The notes under the pieces are model-generated. The model worked only from the letters and a program-made list of their open reading frames with translations, did not search any database and was not told where the DNA came from. The translations under genes were made by a program, and so were the position numbers. From positions 248,001 to 312,000 of the forward strand of contig NZ_JAUCMN010000001.1 in assembly GCF_030363035.1 (NCBI RefSeq): a DNA stretch of 64,000 nucleotides, given 5' to 3'. The DNA comes from Curtobacterium caseinilyticum. GTDB lineage: Bacteria; Actinomycetota; Actinomycetes; Actinomycetales; Microbacteriaceae. Of the stretch, positions 15,146 to 63,208 are shown in pieces; position 1 is the first letter of the stretch; the number at the start of each line of letters is the position of its first letter.

Positions 15146-15616
15146 TCAGTCCTCCGGCGGGCGCTGCAGCAGCAGTCGCGCGTCCCCGAACCCGAGCCGT
15201 CGGTAGAGCGACTCCCCCACGACGCTCGAGTGCACCACGATGCGCTCAGCGCCGAGCTCGTCCGCGGTCTCGACCAGCCGGTCGACCAGTCGGGCAGCGA
15301 CCCCGCCACCGCGCAGGTCCGGGTGCACGTAGACCGTCTGCAGTTCCGCGGCGACACGCCCCCGTGGTCGGTGCGGTGCCGGCGGTCGGGCGTTCAGCGC
15401 CAGCCAGGCCATGCCGAGCACCGTGCCGTCCCGCTCGGCGACGACGCACCGGTGCGTCGCAGCGTGCTCCCGTGCGAACGCGGTCATCGCCTCGCGGTAC
15501 TCCGCCGGCGTGACCGCCGGGGCGGTGCCGTCCTCGTCCACGCTCCACCGCCACCGGAGGTCGGCCACCGCAGGCATGTCCTCCAGCCGGGAGGCACGGA
15601 TCACCACGTCGTCCAT
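15146..15616 (-). CDS. GNAT family N-acetyltransferase
   Basis: This 156-residue protein has the GNAT acetyl-CoA fold. The beta4-alpha3 motif reads VYVHPDLRGGGVAARLVD, followed by GAERIVVHSS and a terminal SLYRRLGF, the usual C-terminal tyrosine motif. The acceptor substrate is unknown. The start at 15616 (MDDVVIRASRLEDMPAVADL) has a nearby GGTGGAG. Upstream in-frame codons run through a strong palindrome and are rejected. The stop lies 16 bases from the convergent thioesterase stop. Confidence 0.88.
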   Translation of the reverse strand: MDDVVIRASRLEDMPAVADLRWRWSVDEDGTAPAVTPAEYREAMTAFAREHAATHRCVVAERDGTVLGMAWLALNARPPAPHRPRGRVAAELQTVYVHPDLRGGGVAARLVDRLVETADELGAERIVVHSSVVGESLYRRLGFGDARLLLQRPPED

Positions 15617-15708
15617 CGCTCCACCCTGCCAGGTGGTCGCCGCTGCGGCGGGGCCGACCCGCGCCTCCCGTCCGACGCGCACACACGCACGGAGCCCGTG
15701 TCCCGTGC

Positions 15709-15771
15709 CCTCGGTGGAGCAGTTGCTGTCGGGTGGCGCCCGCCGACCCGACAGCAACTGCTCCACCGAGG
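15709..15771. repeat. Long perfect inverted repeat between GNAT and pdtaR genes
   Basis: Two perfect 25-base arms (15709-15733 and 15747-15771; outer sequence CCTCGGTGGAGCAGTTGCTG) flank a 13-base loop. It lies about 80 bases past the pdtaR stop and about 90 bases before the GNAT start. The sequence is unrelated to the other hairpin families in the window. It could be a back-up terminator or a mobile palindromic element. Confidence 0.8.
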
Positions 15772-15796
15772 ACCGTCGGAACGGCCGGACGACGCG

Positions 15797-15829
15797 ACAG
15801 CGCCGCCGGACGGTGTCCGGCGGCGCTGT
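15797..15829 (-). terminator. pdtaR terminator hairpin
   Basis: This is a 15-bp perfect inverted repeat (15797-15811 and 15815-15829) with a 3-base loop, beginning 22 bases after the pdtaR stop codon. There is no T-tract. Confidence 0.8.
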
Positions 15830-15851
15830 GGCGTGAGCGGTGGGTGCCGCG

Positions 15852-16457
15852 TTACTTCTTGGCGCTGAGCTGCTCGATGATCGCCTTCGCGACGTCGTGC
15901 ATGGTCAGGCGGCGGTCCATCGAGGCCTTCTGGATCCAACGGAACGCCTCGGGCTCGGTGAGGCCCATCTTCTCGTTGAGCAGGCCCTTGGCGCGGTCGA
16001 CGAGCTTGCGCGTCTCGAAGCGCTCGACCAGGTCGGCGACCTCGGCCTCGAGCGTGATGATCTGCTGGTGCCGCGAGAGGGCGATCTCGATCGCGGGGAG
16101 GAGGTCGTTCGGGGTGAAGGGCTTCACGACGTACGCGAGGGCGCCGGCCTCGGTCGCGCGCTCGACGAGGTCCTTCTGGCTGAACGCCGTGAGGAGGACC
16201 ACCGGAGCGATGTGGTTCTTGGAGAGCTTCTCGGCCGCGGAGATGCCGTCGAGCTGGGGCATCTTGACGTCCATGACGACGAGGTCCGGGCGGAGGTCGG
16301 TCGCGAGCTGCACGGCGGTCTCACCGTCACCGGCTTCACCGACCACGTCGAACCCGTTGTCGCGGAGGATCTCGACGATGTCGAGACGGATGAGCGACTC
16401 GTCCTCGGCGACGACGACGCGACGCGGTGCTGCTGGGGTTGCTTCTGTGTCACTCAC
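15852..16457 (-). CDS. pdtaR: ANTAR-domain response regulator (PdtaR-like)
   Basis: This 201-residue response regulator ends in an RNA-binding ANTAR domain. The receiver (about residues 12-130) has the acidic pair in VVVAEDE, the phospho-acceptor D63 (VVMDVKMPQ) and the lysine of VVKPFTP. A coiled linker follows, then an ANTAR helix bundle (LVDRAKGLLNEKMGLTEPEA...). The architecture matches mycobacterial PdtaR (Rv1626), which acts in transcription antitermination with the sensor PdtaS. No cognate kinase lies in the window. The GTG start at 16457 lies only a few bases after the expected transcription start of the promoter at 16468-16497, so the mRNA may be leaderless. Confidence 0.92.
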   Translation of the reverse strand: MSDTEATPAAPRRVVVAEDESLIRLDIVEILRDNGFDVVGEAGDGETAVQLATDLRPDLVVMDVKMPQLDGISAAEKLSKNHIAPVVLLTAFSQKDLVERATEAGALAYVVKPFTPNDLLPAIEIALSRHQQIITLEAEVADLVERFETRKLVDRAKGLLNEKMGLTEPEAFRWIQKASMDRRLTMHDVAKAIIEQLSAKK

Positions 16458-16467
16458 GACCGAGAGC

Positions 16468-16497
16468 CTACTAGACGGAGCGCGCGGCTTCCGTCAA
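16468..16497 (-). promoter_or_regulatory. Candidate promoter of pdtaR (leaderless)
   Basis: TTGACG (16497-16492) and TAGTAG (16473-16468) are separated by 18 bases on the minus strand. Transcription would start near 16459-16461, two to four bases before the GTG start codon, and no Shine-Dalgarno is present. Confidence 0.5.
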
Positions 16498-16528
16498 CTG
16501 TGGAGGCACCGTTCAAGGAGGCCGTTCT

Positions 16529-16744
16529 GTACGAGTGGCGGGACGCTCCGTGCGCGCAGCCCCGCACGCCGTGAGCGACCTCGTACGAGTGGCGGGACGC
16601 TCCGCGCGCGCAGCCCCGCACGCCGTGAGCGACCTCGTACGAGTGGCGGGACGCTCCGTGTGCGCAGCCCCGCACGCCGTGAGCGACCTTGTACCAGTGG
16701 CGGGACGCTCCGTGTGCGCAGCCCCGCACGCCGTGAGCGACCTT
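16529..16744 (-). repeat. Four 54-bp tandem repeats derived from the adjacent tRNA-Leu 3' half
   Basis: Units lie at 16529-16582, 16583-16636, 16637-16690 and 16691-16744, and the tRNA gene continues in register at 16745. Each unit shares GTACGAGTGGCGGGAC (the tRNA acceptor and T-stem 3' side; one mismatch in unit 4) and CCCGCACGCCGTGAG (T-stem 5' side and variable arm) with the gene. The five T-loop bases TCGAA are replaced by 15-16 bases beginning GCTCCGTG. A 7-base spacer (CGACCTC or CGACCTT) ends each unit. Units differ at only a few positions. On the tRNA strand each unit can fold as an extended T-arm. The array keeps frames open, but no protein is supported. Confidence 0.92.
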
Positions 16745-16745
16745 G

Positions 16746-16826
16746 TACGAGTGGCGGGACTCGAACCCGCACGCCGTGAGGCAGAGCATTTTGAGTGCCC
16801 CGTGTCTACCGTTCCACCACACTCGC
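16746..16826 (-). tRNA. tRNA-Leu (anticodon CAA)
   Basis: On the minus strand, acceptor GCGAGTG (16826-16820) pairs with CACTCGT, followed by discriminator A at 16746. The anticodon stem GGGCA/TGCTC encloses loop CTCAAAA, giving anticodon CAA (reads UUG). The long variable arm and the T-arm GCGGG-TTCGAGT-CCCGC are those of a class II leucine tRNA. CCA is not encoded. The gene is 81 nt long. Four tandem, altered copies of its 3' half follow it directly. Confidence 0.93.
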
Positions 16827-16867
16827 GAGGGCACCAGGCTAGCAGGGCCCGGGTCCGCCTCCGGCCG

Positions 16868-17425
16868 TCACACCGGCACCAGCGGCTGCGGCTCCCCCGC
16901 GGGCAGCTCCACACGGACGGCATCGCCGGCTCGGACCGTACCGCCGGTGACCACGACGCCCATCACGCCGCCCTTGCGCTCCACGCTGCCGTCCTCGGAC
17001 CGGCCGAGGACCGCGCGGAGCAGCCCCGGGTCGAAGTCGTTGATCTGCTGGCACGGGTTCCGGAGCCCCGTGACGCGGACGGAGGCCTCGTCACCGAGGT
17101 GGAGCAGCGTCCCGGTCGGCAACCCGAGCAGGTCGACACCGCGCGTGGTGACGTTCTCCCCCATGTCCCCGGGGACGACGGTGTGCCCGGCCGCCGCGAC
17201 CTCGTCGAACACCTCGGCGTGCAGCAGGTGCACCTGTCGGAGGTTCGGCTGCGAGGGGTCCCGGGCGACGCGGGACCGGTGCTGCACGGTGGCGCCGGCG
17301 TGGGCGTCGCCCTCGACGCCCCACCCCGCGACGAGGGTGATCTCCTCCACGACGGGCTTGCTGAAGCGGTGCTCGGCGTCGCGACCCACGGCGACGACCC
17401 GACCGGTCTCCTGACGAGTGCTCAC
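16868..17425 (-). CDS. MOSC domain-containing protein
   Basis: This 185-residue MOSC-domain protein has the conserved motifs GVEGDAHAG, GDMGENVTTRG, LLHLG and the cysteine-bearing GLRNPCQQI. MOSC domains occur in molybdenum-cofactor sulfurase C-termini and the YiiM/mARC families and are thought to carry sulfur or bind Mo-cofactor. This one is a stand-alone YiiM-type protein of unknown substrate. The GTG start at 17425 overlaps the stop of the upstream histidine kinase (GTGA). It is therefore the third gene of an RR-kinase-MOSC operon. The order is unusual and may mean that the MOSC protein's level follows the two-component system. Confidence 0.88.
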   Translation of the reverse strand: MSTRQETGRVVAVGRDAEHRFSKPVVEEITLVAGWGVEGDAHAGATVQHRSRVARDPSQPNLRQVHLLHAEVFDEVAAAGHTVVPGDMGENVTTRGVDLLGLPTGTLLHLGDEASVRVTGLRNPCQQINDFDPGLLRAVLGRSEDGSVERKGGVMGVVVTGGTVRAGDAVRVELPAGEPQPLVPV

Positions 17426-19017
17426 GCCTCCATCGTGGCAGACACGGGCGCCCGGTCGACACCCCGACCTGCTGCCGACCCGGGCTCGACGGACCGGCAG
17501 GTCCGTGGCAGGCGGAGCACGAACCGGGCGCCACCGAGCGTGCCGTCGTCCCCGTGGACGAGGGTGCCGCCGTGGGCGACCGCGATGCCGCGGGCGATCG
17601 GCAGACCGAGTCCCGCACCACCCGACCGGACGTCGCGAGCGTCCTCGAGCCGCACGAGCCGGTCGAAGACCCGCTCCCGGTCCCCGAGCGGGATGCCGGG
17701 GCCGTCGTCCTCGACCTCGAGCACCGCTCCGTCACCGTCGGCGGCGAGGGACAGCCGCACGGTCCCCGTCCCACCCGTGGCGCGTGCGGCGTTGTCGACG
17801 AGGTTGGCGAGCACCTGCGCGAGCCGGTCGGGGTCCACGTCCGCACGGACGGGTCCGGACGGCAGCTCGGGACGCAGGGCGGTACCCGGCAGCCGGAGTC
17901 CGAGCCGGTCGACCTCGGCACGCAGCCACGCGACGAGGTCGGTCGGCCGTCGGTCGAGGGCGATCCCACGGTCCAGGCGGGCCATGGTGAGCATGTCGTC
18001 CACGAGGCGCGCTGCACGGTCCGCCTGCCGGACGACGTGCACGGCGAGGACCTCGGTCGTCGCCGGGTCGTCGCCGCCGCTCCGCACGAGGGTGTCCGCG
18101 GCCGCGCGGACCCCGGCCACCGGCGTGCGGAGTTCGTGTGCGGCGTCCGACAGGAACCCGCGGACGCGCTCCTCGGCCGCCACGGCCTGGGCCTCGGCGC
18201 CCTCGACGGCGTCGAGCATCTCGTCGAAGGCGGCGGCCACGCGGCCGATCTCGGTGTCGGTCCGTGCGGGTCGCAGCCGCCGACCGCGGTCGCCGTCGGC
18301 GATCGAGCGCGCCGTCGCCGTGACCTCGTCGAGCGGACGCAACGCGCGACGGACGACCAGGACGACACCGACCACGGCGACCCCGAGGAAGGCCGCGGAC
18401 GCCCCGCCCATCACCCACCCGAGCTGCGCGAGGGTCTCCTGCACGTCGCGCGTCCCGGCGGTGAGCGTGATGCGGGTGCCGTCGTCGAGGACGGACCGGA
18501 GCGTGAGGACGCCGTCGTCGTCGCGCACGTCGGCGGACACGACGGATGCACCGGACGTCGTCGTGGCCCCCGCCCCGGACCTGGTCGAGCCGGCCGAGGA
18601 CGATCCCGGGTCCGACGATCCCGGCGCCGACGATCCTGGGCTCGACGAGCCACCGGACGACCGCTCGCGCGCCGCCGGGCCCGGGAGCCCTGCCGGGTCG
18701 GGTGGCCCGGAGCGGAGCTGGTCGGGGGTCGGACCGGCCTCGACCGCGGCACCGTCGGACTGCACGATCCGCACGGAGAGCCCCTGCGCCGACAACCGGT
18801 CGGCCAGATCGTCGGCGTCGAGCACCCCGACGAGCGCTGCGGCGGCGGCAGCCCGGTCCCGCAGCCGGTCCTCGACCTGGGCGCGGAGCCGGGCACCGAG
18901 CACCGCCTCGACCGCGACGACGAGGCCGGCGAGCAGCACCGCGAGCAGCACGAGCACCGCCACCACGGTCCGGAGCCGCAGCGACGTGGTGCGCAACCGT
19001 CCGCCCGCCGGGATCAC
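17422..19017 (-). CDS. Sensor histidine kinase
   Basis: This 531-residue membrane sensor has a first transmembrane helix (about residues 16-38) and an extracytoplasmic region to about 200. A second helix (about 201-223) is followed by a HAMP domain. The phospho-acceptor is H294 (SDAAHELRTPVAG), and the ATPase boxes are LVDNAARAT, DDGPGIP and GGAGLGLPIARG. The sensor region has a low-complexity Gly/Ser/Pro stretch (about 121-145, GSSxPGSS repeats encoded by 15-bp units), probably a flexible linker. The GTG start overlaps the regulator's stop (GTGA), and its own stop overlaps the MOSC start. The stimulus is unknown. Confidence 0.92.
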   Translation of the reverse strand: MIPAGGRLRTTSLRLRTVVAVLVLLAVLLAGLVVAVEAVLGARLRAQVEDRLRDRAAAAAALVGVLDADDLADRLSAQGLSVRIVQSDGAAVEAGPTPDQLRSGPPDPAGLPGPAARERSSGGSSSPGSSAPGSSDPGSSSAGSTRSGAGATTTSGASVVSADVRDDDGVLTLRSVLDDGTRITLTAGTRDVQETLAQLGWVMGGASAAFLGVAVVGVVLVVRRALRPLDEVTATARSIADGDRGRRLRPARTDTEIGRVAAAFDEMLDAVEGAEAQAVAAEERVRGFLSDAAHELRTPVAGVRAAADTLVRSGGDDPATTEVLAVHVVRQADRAARLVDDMLTMARLDRGIALDRRPTDLVAWLRAEVDRLGLRLPGTALRPELPSGPVRADVDPDRLAQVLANLVDNAARATGGTGTVRLSLAADGDGAVLEVEDDGPGIPLGDRERVFDRLVRLEDARDVRSGGAGLGLPIARGIAVAHGGTLVHGDDGTLGGARFVLRLPRTCRSVEPGSAAGRGVDRAPVSATMEA

Positions 19018-22163: not shown

Positions 22164-22205
22164 AGCACCGATCCTGCCCGGTCCCGTCGGCGGGTGGTCG
22201 CGCCG

Positions 22206-22269
22206 GCGCGGCGGCGCGGCGGCGCGGCGGCGCGGCGGCGCGGCGGCGCGGCGGCGCGGCGGCGCGGCG
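22206..22269. repeat. Eight perfect tandem copies of GCGCGGCG
   Basis: Eight exact, head-to-tail copies of the 8-bp unit GCGCGGCG lie about 43 bases upstream of the VIT1-like start codon. An 8-bp unit changes spacing by most of a helical turn per copy, so length changes could alter promoter geometry. Confidence 0.92.
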
Positions 22270-61252: not shown

Positions 61253-61413
61253 GGGTCTTCCGTTCGATGGTGTTGTGAAGGTCTCCCGGACGTGCGTCCG
61301 GTCCCGGTGTCGGCGGGCCGTGCCCGTGTCGACGCCCCGACGAGTGTAGCGGACGGGTGCCCACCACCCCGGGCGCGTGCCGGGCCCCTGGCCGCGTCGG
61401 CGCCGGCGCCGAT

Positions 61414-61530
61414 GGCGCGGGCTGTCCGCTCCCGGGCGGTGCCGGCGTCGACGGCGCTGGCCGTCCGCTCCCGGGCGGTGCCGGCGTCGACGGCCCGGGC
61501 CGTCCGCTCCCGGGCGGTGTCAGCGTCGTC
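61414..61530. repeat. Three tandem 39-bp repeats between the AarF kinase gene and efp
   Basis: Units at 61414-61452, 61453-61491 and 61492-61530 share the core GTCCGCTCCCGGGCGGTG. Each contains the small inverted repeat CCGC-TCCCGG-GCGG. The array begins inside the last codons of the AarF-like gene (stop at 61520) and lies about 160 bases upstream of efp. A 39-bp unit (13 codons) keeps frames open, but no protein is supported. Confidence 0.88.
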
Positions 61531-63208
61531 GGCGCGCACGCCAGGCATCGACCGCGGCCCACACCAGGAGCACGACGGCCGTGCCGCCGAGGATGCCGCC
61601 CGCCGCCCCCGTGCTCAGCACCGCGGTCGGCCGTGCCGGCGTCGCGAGGTACACGATCGCGAGCACGCCGGCCCCCGCGCCGAGCAGCACGAGCAGCACG
61701 CGGCGGACGAGCCCGGACACGACCTCGCGGTCGCGCCGGTCCGAGAAGAGCCGGATGTTGACCGCGAGCCTGCCCGACTCGAGGGCTTCGCCGATCCGGT
61801 CGACGCGGCGCGGCAACTTCCGGACCGTCGACACCACGCCGAAGAGCTCGCGGAGCGCGAGGTCGCGGACCGCCCGTGGTCGGAGCTGGTCGCGGATCTG
61901 CCGCCGTGCCAGGTCACGGGACTCCTCGAGCAGGTCGAACGACGGCGCCAGACTGCGGAGCGTCCCCTCGAAGATCGCGAGCGCACGTGCGGCCGCGACG
62001 AAGTCCGGCGGGGGCTTGAGCCGGTACCGCCCGAACACCGCGACGGCGTCGTCCACCGTCTCGACGCCGATCCGGGCACCGGGGCCGAGCTCGTCCGCGA
62101 CGAACGCGGCGATGTCACGGCGGAAGTCGGGCTCGTCCTCGGCGTCCCGCACCGGTGCCATCCGCATCACCGCGTCGGCGATCCGCTCGGTGTCGTCCTG
62201 GATGTACCCCGCCAGCAGGTCCTGCACGGTCGACCGCAGGCCGGGGTCGAGCCGCCCGACCGACCCGAAGTCGATGAGCGCCGGGCGACCGTCCGGCAGC
62301 AGCACGACGTTCCCGGGGTGGAGGTCGGCGTGGTAGATCCCGTCGAAGACGACCTGCCGCAGGAACGCGTCGAGCACCGCACGCATCGGGGCGTCGAGGT
62401 CCTCCCCCGCGCCGGCCGCCCGGAGCGCGCTCAGCGTCTCGCCCTCCAGGTACTCCATCACCATCACCCGGCGCCCGGACAGGTCCCGGTACGGCTCGGG
62501 GAACGCCACCGCGTCGGGGCGGGCGCTCCGGGCCTGGGCCGCGCGGAGGGCCGTCAGGTTGCGCATCTCGGCCGTGAAGTCGACCTGCCGGACGAGGTCG
62601 TCGGCGTACTGCTGTGCCACGTCCGCCACGCCGACCTGGCGCGCCTCGGCGCTCGTCCGCGCGAGGAAGCGGACCACCCGCAGGGCGATGTCGACGTCGC
62701 GGCGCACGGCCTGGTCGATGCCCGGCCGCTGCACCTTGACGGCGACGACCGTGCCGTCACGCAGGGTGGCGCGGTGCACCTGGGCGATGGACGCGGCGGC
62801 CACCGGCTCCGGGTCGAAGGTGGCGAACACCTCGTCGACGGGAGCCCCGAGTTCCTCCTCGAGCAGCGCGACGACCGCGGCCGGGTCGGCGGGCCGCACG
62901 CTGCGCTGCAGGTGGACGAGCCCCTCGGTCCACTCGTCGGGCAACAGGTCGTCGCGCGTCGACAGCAGCTGGCCCATCTTGACGAACCCGCCACCGGCCT
63001 CCTCGAGCGCCCGGCGGAGGTGCTCGGCCTGCCGCCGCCGCAGGTCGGCGGTCTCGGGGTCGCGGGTGAAGTCGAGCCGGCGGAACGGGACGAGCTCGTG
63101 GCGGCGGGCGATCGCGAGCAGCTCGGCGGCACGGCGGGCGCGGGACCGGAGGCTGCCGACGGCGACGTCCTGCTGGCCGAGGTCGCTCAGGCGGGGCGGG
63201 GTGGGCAC
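61520..63208 (-). CDS. AarF/UbiB (ADCK) family atypical kinase
   Basis: This 562-residue protein belongs to the UbiB/ADCK family of atypical protein kinase-like ATPases linked to quinone-lipid metabolism. It shows the family KxGQ motif ([15 protein letters not shown]), [21 protein letters not shown], the catalytic DLHPGN and IDFGSVG. Two transmembrane helices lie at the C-terminus. The client is unknown; a menaquinone role is possible. GTG at 63208 ([14 protein letters not shown]) is a best guess, since the frame is open to 63340 but that extension is not family-like. It sits between aroB and efp, where other actinobacteria often carry aroQ or a peptidase. Confidence 0.9.

Follow-up and report, generated by a model that had tools for sequence, protein, structure and literature searches.

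The closest described systems are the tRNA-linked repeats of Escherichia coli (TLRs, which include the RtT RNA of the tyrT operon), first described in 1978, of which the K-12 strain carries 22 genes at ten loci, the last 18-19 bp of each being identical to the 3' terminus of the tRNA or rRNA gene that precedes it (PMC8144298). The 2021 paper states that TLRs have no known function and then presents evidence for three rRNA-linked TLRs; the rrA, rrB and rrF TLRs are reported to be transcribed and processed, with Hfq and CsrA binding to them (PMC8144298). In the E. coli regions that were read, namely tyrT/tyrV and five further tRNA regions, 12 copied tails of 18-19 nt were identified, belonging to tyrT, tyrV (two within 450 bp), argV, argZ, argQ, lysV, lysT, lysW, lysY, lysZ and lysQ, and none in the argX-proM and glyVXY regions. 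The three tyrT/tyrV copies share a composite plan, in which the T-arm 5' block AAGGTTCG is followed by a long insert and by a 19-nt tRNA tail; the lysV and lysQ copies carry a shorter T-arm match (GCAGGTT), and in seven of the 12 tails the T-arm 5' block before the insert is absent.

A comparable arrangement is found in Curtobacterium caseinilyticum. The window, that is, the whole 64-kb stretch of its genome analysed here, contains a single tRNA gene according to ARAGORN, a tRNA-Leu(CAA) in which CCA is not encoded, and four units of 54 bp (16529-16744, minus strand) follow its 3' end in exact register. The features of the locus are the following.

16868..17425, minus strand: gene upstream of the tRNA, MOSC-domain protein (Pfam MOSC, 3.6e-13)
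16745..16826, minus strand: tRNA-Leu(CAA) gene from which the repeated 3' part derives (ARAGORN; Rfam RF00005, 53.1 bits)
16691..16744, minus strand: unit 1 (spacer 16738-16744, block A 16723-16737, insert 16706-16722, block B 16691-16705, the last with one mismatch to the tRNA 3' end)
16637..16690, minus strand: unit 2, layout as unit 1, block B exact
16583..16636, minus strand: unit 3, layout as unit 1, block B exact
16529..16582, minus strand: unit 4, layout as unit 1, block B exact, with unrepeated sequence beyond
15852..16457, minus strand: downstream neighbour, response regulator with ANTAR domain and GTG start (Pfam Response_reg 8.4e-27, ANTAR 1.3e-21)

Read along the tRNA strand, a unit consists of a 7-nt spacer, a 15-nt block A (variable arm and 5' strand of the T-stem), a 17-nt insert standing in the place of the T-loop, and a 15-nt block B, which comprises the 3' strands of T-stem and acceptor stem up to the end of the gene; the last T-loop base, a T on the tRNA strand, is retained. 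The minus-strand order is thus tRNA, units 1-4, 71 bp, and the GTG of the response regulator gene. Tandem Repeats Finder (TRF) reports the array at 16529-16760 with period 54, 4.3 copies, 96% match and no indels, its score of 422 being the highest of the 49 TRF rows of the window; an independent repeat search gives copy spacings of 54, 54, 54 and 54, and the array matches one site in the host genome (E up to 0.001). The register with the tRNA and the anatomy of the units, first proposed in a sequence-only reading of this DNA, are therefore confirmed by ARAGORN, TRF and the repeat search, as is the lack of the tRNA 5' half in every unit; of what that reading said about the T-loop, the presence of an insert stands, while the bases lost are six of seven (TTCGAG) rather than TCGAA and the insert measures 17 nt rather than 15-16.

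The same reading knew of no described element of this form, which was mistaken, the form being shared by the TLRs of E. coli. In both cases the copies lie directly 3' of a tRNA gene and in its direction, several of them at some loci, and the 3' end of each copy reproduces that of the upstream tRNA; for Leu the match covers the final 16 nt, exact in units 2-4 and with the single mismatch in unit 1, and is slightly shorter than the 18-19 nt of E. coli, while the match of the tRNA-Lys(TTT) units described below (about 39 nt) is longer. The plan of the tyrT/tyrV TLRs is indeed that of the Leu unit, the T-loop being interrupted in both. The differences concern dimensions and variability: the E. coli tyrV copies recur every 178 bp, whereas the arrays considered here have periods of 44-67 bp with a copied part of about 30-50 nt, their spacers and inserts differ between species, and one array reaches 14 units (in G035). 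Like the rrA, rrB and rrF TLRs (PMC8144298), the arrays are predicted to give rise to a trailer RNA whose 3' terminus copies that of the gene upstream; those TLRs are single copies behind 5S rRNA, and the comparison is one of plan, not of sequence. The Rfam model of RtT (RF00391), which gives four matches in the E. coli control, gives none at the gathering cut-off in 12 actinobacterial loci and none in 15500-17500 of the window at E up to 1. The arrays thus resemble TLRs by position and anatomy and fall outside the RtT sequence family; what is new with respect to the TLRs of E. coli is the host group, the scale and the variation. A search of open-licence papers, mostly by title and beginning of the abstract, found no such arrays in actinobacteria.

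The interpretation that we favour, with a confidence that we would put at about even, is that the arrays are TLR-like trailer RNA modules which originated in tandem duplication; they are probably transcribed and cleaved in the manner of tRNA 3' ends, and they would represent the actinobacterial counterpart of TLRs. The units would be born by tandem duplication of the 3' part of the tRNA, which is the simplest origin because duplications breaking the tRNA are lost, and slippage or unequal exchange involving the repeated 3' ends would later raise their number or remove them. The array would be transcribed as the trailer of the pre-tRNA; indeed, read-through is likely because no terminator-like site, sought as a GC-rich hairpin with a T run, is present between tRNA and array (none in 16380-16960). 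Each copied 3' end may then be cut or trimmed by the machinery that finishes tRNAs, with the release of short T-arm RNAs, as suggested by general tRNA maturation and by a proposal made for E. coli RrB; the idea that the units act as processing signals is close to what has been suggested for the 3' end of RrB, itself a TLR (PMC8144298). Selection would keep the 3' block recognisable and, at the same time, keep the unit from being a second working half of a tRNA, the disabling change being probably the T-loop insert (Leu, Met) or the replacement of A37 by C (Lys, Arg, Met, Thr).

The distribution of the Leu units was followed in 66 Curtobacterium genomes, 65 of which gave a match to tRNA and array, the remaining one being 73% complete. 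When units are counted as block-B copies with at most 3/15 mismatches downstream of all 65 tRNA-Leu(CAA) loci, 39 loci have none, 14 have one, five have two, three have three, one has four, two have five and one has seven, the count for G003 being a lower bound as its contig ends within the array; one to seven units are therefore present in 26 of 65 loci, immediately downstream of the tRNA and in its orientation, and half units occur at a few more. Strongly diverged units would escape this search, although the short unit-free stretches (34-122 bp) leave little room for them. The start of the regulator gene lies less than 700 bp away in 64 of 65 loci, the other locus stopping at a contig end, and the distance from tRNA to regulator is 34-394 bp in the 62 loci in which it was measured. 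A scan of named species genomes with the unit pattern, from which records close to the genome of the window may have been excluded, matched Curtobacterium only, in 16 stretches; the Leu(CAA) array is found also in a genome of another genus (G274), and in the survey of the phylum described below. The complete Leu unit is dispensable, since 39 of the 65 species are without it. Its number changes between sister species (one unit in G049, five in G050), and the comparison of G060, in which the downstream sequence begins right at the end of the tRNA, with its relative G064, in which a similar sequence begins right after the sole unit, makes the units look as if they were gained or lost whole.

This rapid turnover is what would be expected of a neutral minisatellite anchored to the tRNA, which is the main rival of our interpretation and which we regard as possible but doubtful. 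According to this explanation, only those duplications that spare the tRNA survive, that is, downstream copies of its 3' part; slippage changes their number, and misalignment with the tRNA renews their 3' block. On a tree built from two neighbouring genes, with long branches and weak forks, the presence of Leu units in 65 species requires at least 17 changes (mean 20.4 with shuffled labels, 7 of 100 shuffles at or below the observed value) and that of Lys units in 48 species requires 15 (mean 14.8, 65 of 100 at or below); the presence of units carries little phylogenetic signal, and both this near-absence of signal and the fast turnover are in line with a minisatellite. The same can be said of the homogeneity of units within arrays (identity 0.90-0.98) and of the assembly break inside the G003 array.

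The conservation of the parts of the unit bears on both explanations. From 46 of 54 block-B copies that could be parsed, the first units of 22 species (of the 26 with units) were compared: block B shows a mean pairwise identity of 0.98 and block A one of 0.93, against 0.67 in the insert (0.58 when shuffled) and 0.61 in the spacer (0.51 when shuffled), and part of the constancy of blocks A and B is due to their use in finding the units. Block B is the most constant part, and in a minisatellite it would also be the one that the tRNA renews most readily. The inserts, in which position 7 is C in 22 of 22 species and position 4 is G in 21 of 22, are related between species. Moreover, pairing of their first two bases with those that precede and open block B would give a T-stem of 7 bp; both extra pairs are possible in 18 of the 22 first units, compared with 4.6 expected from shuffled inserts, which bears out the earlier suggestion of an extended T-arm and is not accounted for by a minisatellite. 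A further difficulty for the latter is that exchange within block A should restore some native T-arms, and none is present in the 65 Leu intergenic stretches. Beyond this, the Leu units gain no folding stability over versions whose spacer and insert are shuffled (mean z -0.15 over 22 species), a lack of excess that is in line with a neutral origin. The tRNA and the array folded together give z -2.2, with 4 of 200 shuffles equally good; this value was dropped as evidence of function in view of the mean of the units alone. In conclusion, the T-stem is kept and no larger structure is shown. The sequence-only reading had named, as grounds for dismissing the array as noise, copies that vary freely with no conservation of structure; copy number does vary freely, while block sequence and T-stem pairing are conserved and overall folding is no better than that of shuffles.

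The position of the array between the tRNA and the next gene, together with its GC-rich T-arm hairpins, might suggest that it serves as a terminator or insulator, as had also been proposed from the sequence. The absence of terminator-like sites in 16380-16960 leaves that proposal unsupported, and further points speak against it: the 39 species without a complete unit have only 34-122 bp between the two genes, the units show no excess of folding, and the genes downstream differ between arrays (an ANTAR regulator, an AI-2E transporter and, at one array, a gene that we take to be argG). We consider this explanation very improbable. The opposite idea, that arrays are found where terminators are missing, was also set aside, the absence of a terminator not being distinctive: a crude finder places terminators at only 7 of 39 last-of-operon tRNAs in G000 and at 17 of 41 in G037.

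Units follow several other tRNA genes as well. A survey of the 47 tRNA genes of the host genome revealed two further arrays, one at tRNA-Arg(CCT), which runs into a contig end, and one at tRNA-Met(CAT), with three 51-bp units and a diverged fourth, the insert being placed after the T-loop; both arrays come and go across Curtobacterium, as the Leu array does. Of the 48 tRNAs surveyed in G037, units are present at Lys(TTT), Arg(CCT) and Leu(CAA). The tRNA-Lys(TTT) units, which repeat about 39 nt of the tRNA 3' end, occur directly behind the tRNA and in its orientation at 30 of the 50 loci read among 66 genomes searched, the loci outside these 50 being the low-scoring ones; in G017 the unit lies behind an island. 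Pattern searches for three T-loops, which also brought up the Leu(CAA) array of G274, gave units at tRNA-Arg(TCT) in ten genomes of seven genera, eight of them verified beside the gene by ARAGORN (G391 is not among the eight, and G206 is masked), and units at tRNA-Ser(GGA) in two genomes of the family. In a two-loop search of 398 genomes of the phylum, single units or several were seen next to Met, Arg(TCT), Val, Leu(GAG) and Leu(CAA) genes. The 396 genomes searched for the order yielded one verified array from beyond the family, at tRNA-Thr(TGT) in G858, a count that leaves out matches in G878, G941, G1036, G1074 and G1146; for the class, with 393 genomes, the sole match besides the host is an unverified one in G1455. 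The surveys based on the T-loop pattern see only intact T-loop motifs and miss interrupted Leu units of the type found in the window, and matches of the three-loop and two-loop surveys resembling coding repeats or chance were dropped by eye. The Lys, Arg(TCT) and Thr units are without a T-loop insert.

The longest array seen is that at tRNA-Arg(CCT) of G035 (L262), in which 14 tandem units of 64 bp each consist of tRNA positions 26-74 and a 15-nt spacer. The units of any one array are nearly identical, spacer included, and a CRISPR-like array was accordingly rejected. A coding origin was considered for the Met array of the host, which is in frame with the AI-2E gene (L090 1544-2905), the open frame with its 17-residue repeats starting inside the tRNA gene; it was discarded on the ground that several unit lengths elsewhere are not multiples of three. 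In G000 the gene next to tRNA-Met(CAT) encodes, according to Pfam, a member of the AI-2E transporter family, and in 15 of 17 loci (L174-L190; for instance L174 of G045 and L189 of G047) a GTG resembling the start of the next gene abuts the 3' end of tRNA-Met(CAT), so that 3' processing of the tRNA would itself yield a leaderless mRNA.

In all 30 first Lys(TTT) units base 37 is C, whereas the tRNA has A37; units that reach the anticodon loop differ from the tRNA here, reading TCA for TAA, and bases 33-35 of the Lys units vary between species. The expression used for the Lys search left bases 32-37 and 59-72 free and fixed most of 38-58, which explains part of the constancy of the latter; bases 59-71, free in the search, have a mean identity of 0.970, and the spacers 0.655 compared with 0.56 when shuffled. 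A relaxed search raised the number of Lys copies to 56, in 31 of 50 loci, and 55 of them have C37, the lone exception being a shifted remnant with 9/31 mismatches. The same replacement recurs in units of Arg(TCT), Arg(CCT), Met(CAT) of G667 and Thr(TGT); the Val(TAC) units keep A37 and have A35C, the Met unit of G810 has a rearranged loop and that of G023 an unrelated loop, also with C at 37. All five tRNA types in which A37C occurs decode ANN codons, and t6A is the modification expected at their base 37.

Since the tRNA has A37, C37 cannot be maintained by copying or conversion from it, and something must therefore act on the units themselves. Thus the minisatellite explanation accounts well for the turnover and for the constancy of block B and does not account for C37: renewal from the tRNA cannot produce a base that differs from it in 30 of 30 first Lys units and recurs in other tRNA types. 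Two other causes of A37C were considered and rejected. Avoidance of the dinucleotide TA (UpA) is suggested by its scarcity in Lys spacers (0, 11.2 expected) and Leu spacers (0, 4.6 expected), less so in Leu inserts (4, 5.4 expected); it is not singled out as the cause, unit-free stretches of the genus being also TA-poor (0.13 and 0.42 of expectation), and it leaves unexplained why the replacement is always C. Retro-copying of a mature tRNA, misread at a modified base 37, would be expected to bring CCA along, and the units of the window have none; base 58 is expected to be m1A, and the A58 found in 30 of 30 Lys units, a base fixed by the search expression, also opposes this origin. Because the inserts are related and C37 is shared, we read the scattered distribution as that of old arrays lost many times rather than of many independent gains, although counts of changes cannot tell gain from loss.

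The Lys locus is also the one at which an origin from integrases must be weighed, the units being in this case leftover or decoy attachment sites, as the 3' part of tRNA genes is what tRNA-targeting integrases use. Islands with Phage_integrase genes are found in tRNA-Lys(TTT) of G017 (about 10 kb, L344 260-10397) and of G021 (about 3.7 kb, L345 209-4054), and the 3' fragments that they displace begin at tRNA position 36 or 32, close to where the Lys units have their 5' boundary; such fragments resemble the units in being a tRNA 3' part lying downstream and, as in G017 and G021, the Lys units begin near the anticodon loop. The units differ in being short and tandem, in their conserved C37 in place of A37, and in that no island or integrase is seen at the Leu locus, where the regulator starts within 700 bp in 64 of 65 cases; the suggestion that the Leu array is the scar of integration at a tRNA thus finds no support there. 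A unit of 44-67 bp is, besides, too short for an excisable circle. Most units are without the 5' arm of the anticodon stem, which such a site would need, and similar unit sizes at many loci would hardly be expected from the random decay of islands. On the whole we attach little likelihood to an integrase origin. The native fragment displaced in G017 carries A37 and adjoins an intact unit with C37; an old displaced fragment of G021 has G37. In G021 (L359), moreover, about 12.5 kb separate tRNA-Arg(CCT) from a copy of its 3' end that resembles a unit and lies beside a gene that is presumably argG; this suggests that an island was inserted between the tRNA and its array.

If the arrays are indeed trailer modules, a stronger proposal can be made, which we hold only tentatively and consider rather unlikely: arrays of disabled tRNA 3' halves would form a working class of trailer RNAs in Microbacteriaceae, buffering or timing the enzymes of tRNA 3' processing or modification, and the TLRs of E. 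coli, for the most part without an explanation since 1978, would be the same device. On this proposal transcription would run from the tRNA into the array, every copied 3' end would be cleaved, and the units would be selected both for likeness to a tRNA end (through block B) and against serving as a second tRNA half (through the T-loop insert or A37C). The same anatomy as that of TLRs occurs in a distant phylum and at several tRNA genes; related species that differ by zero to seven Leu units are natural deletions and expansions with which the role of TLRs can be studied, and the mismatch of C37 to the tRNA is a handle on what the copies are selected for. What makes the arrays interesting is these comparative data and base 37 rather than any demonstrated function.

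Two other repeats of the window deserve a brief mention: at 22199-22269 the 8-bp repeat CGCGGCGG is present in nearly nine copies with 98% match, its length not being a multiple of three, and at 61398-61536 a 39-bp repeat is present in 3.6 copies with 89% match.
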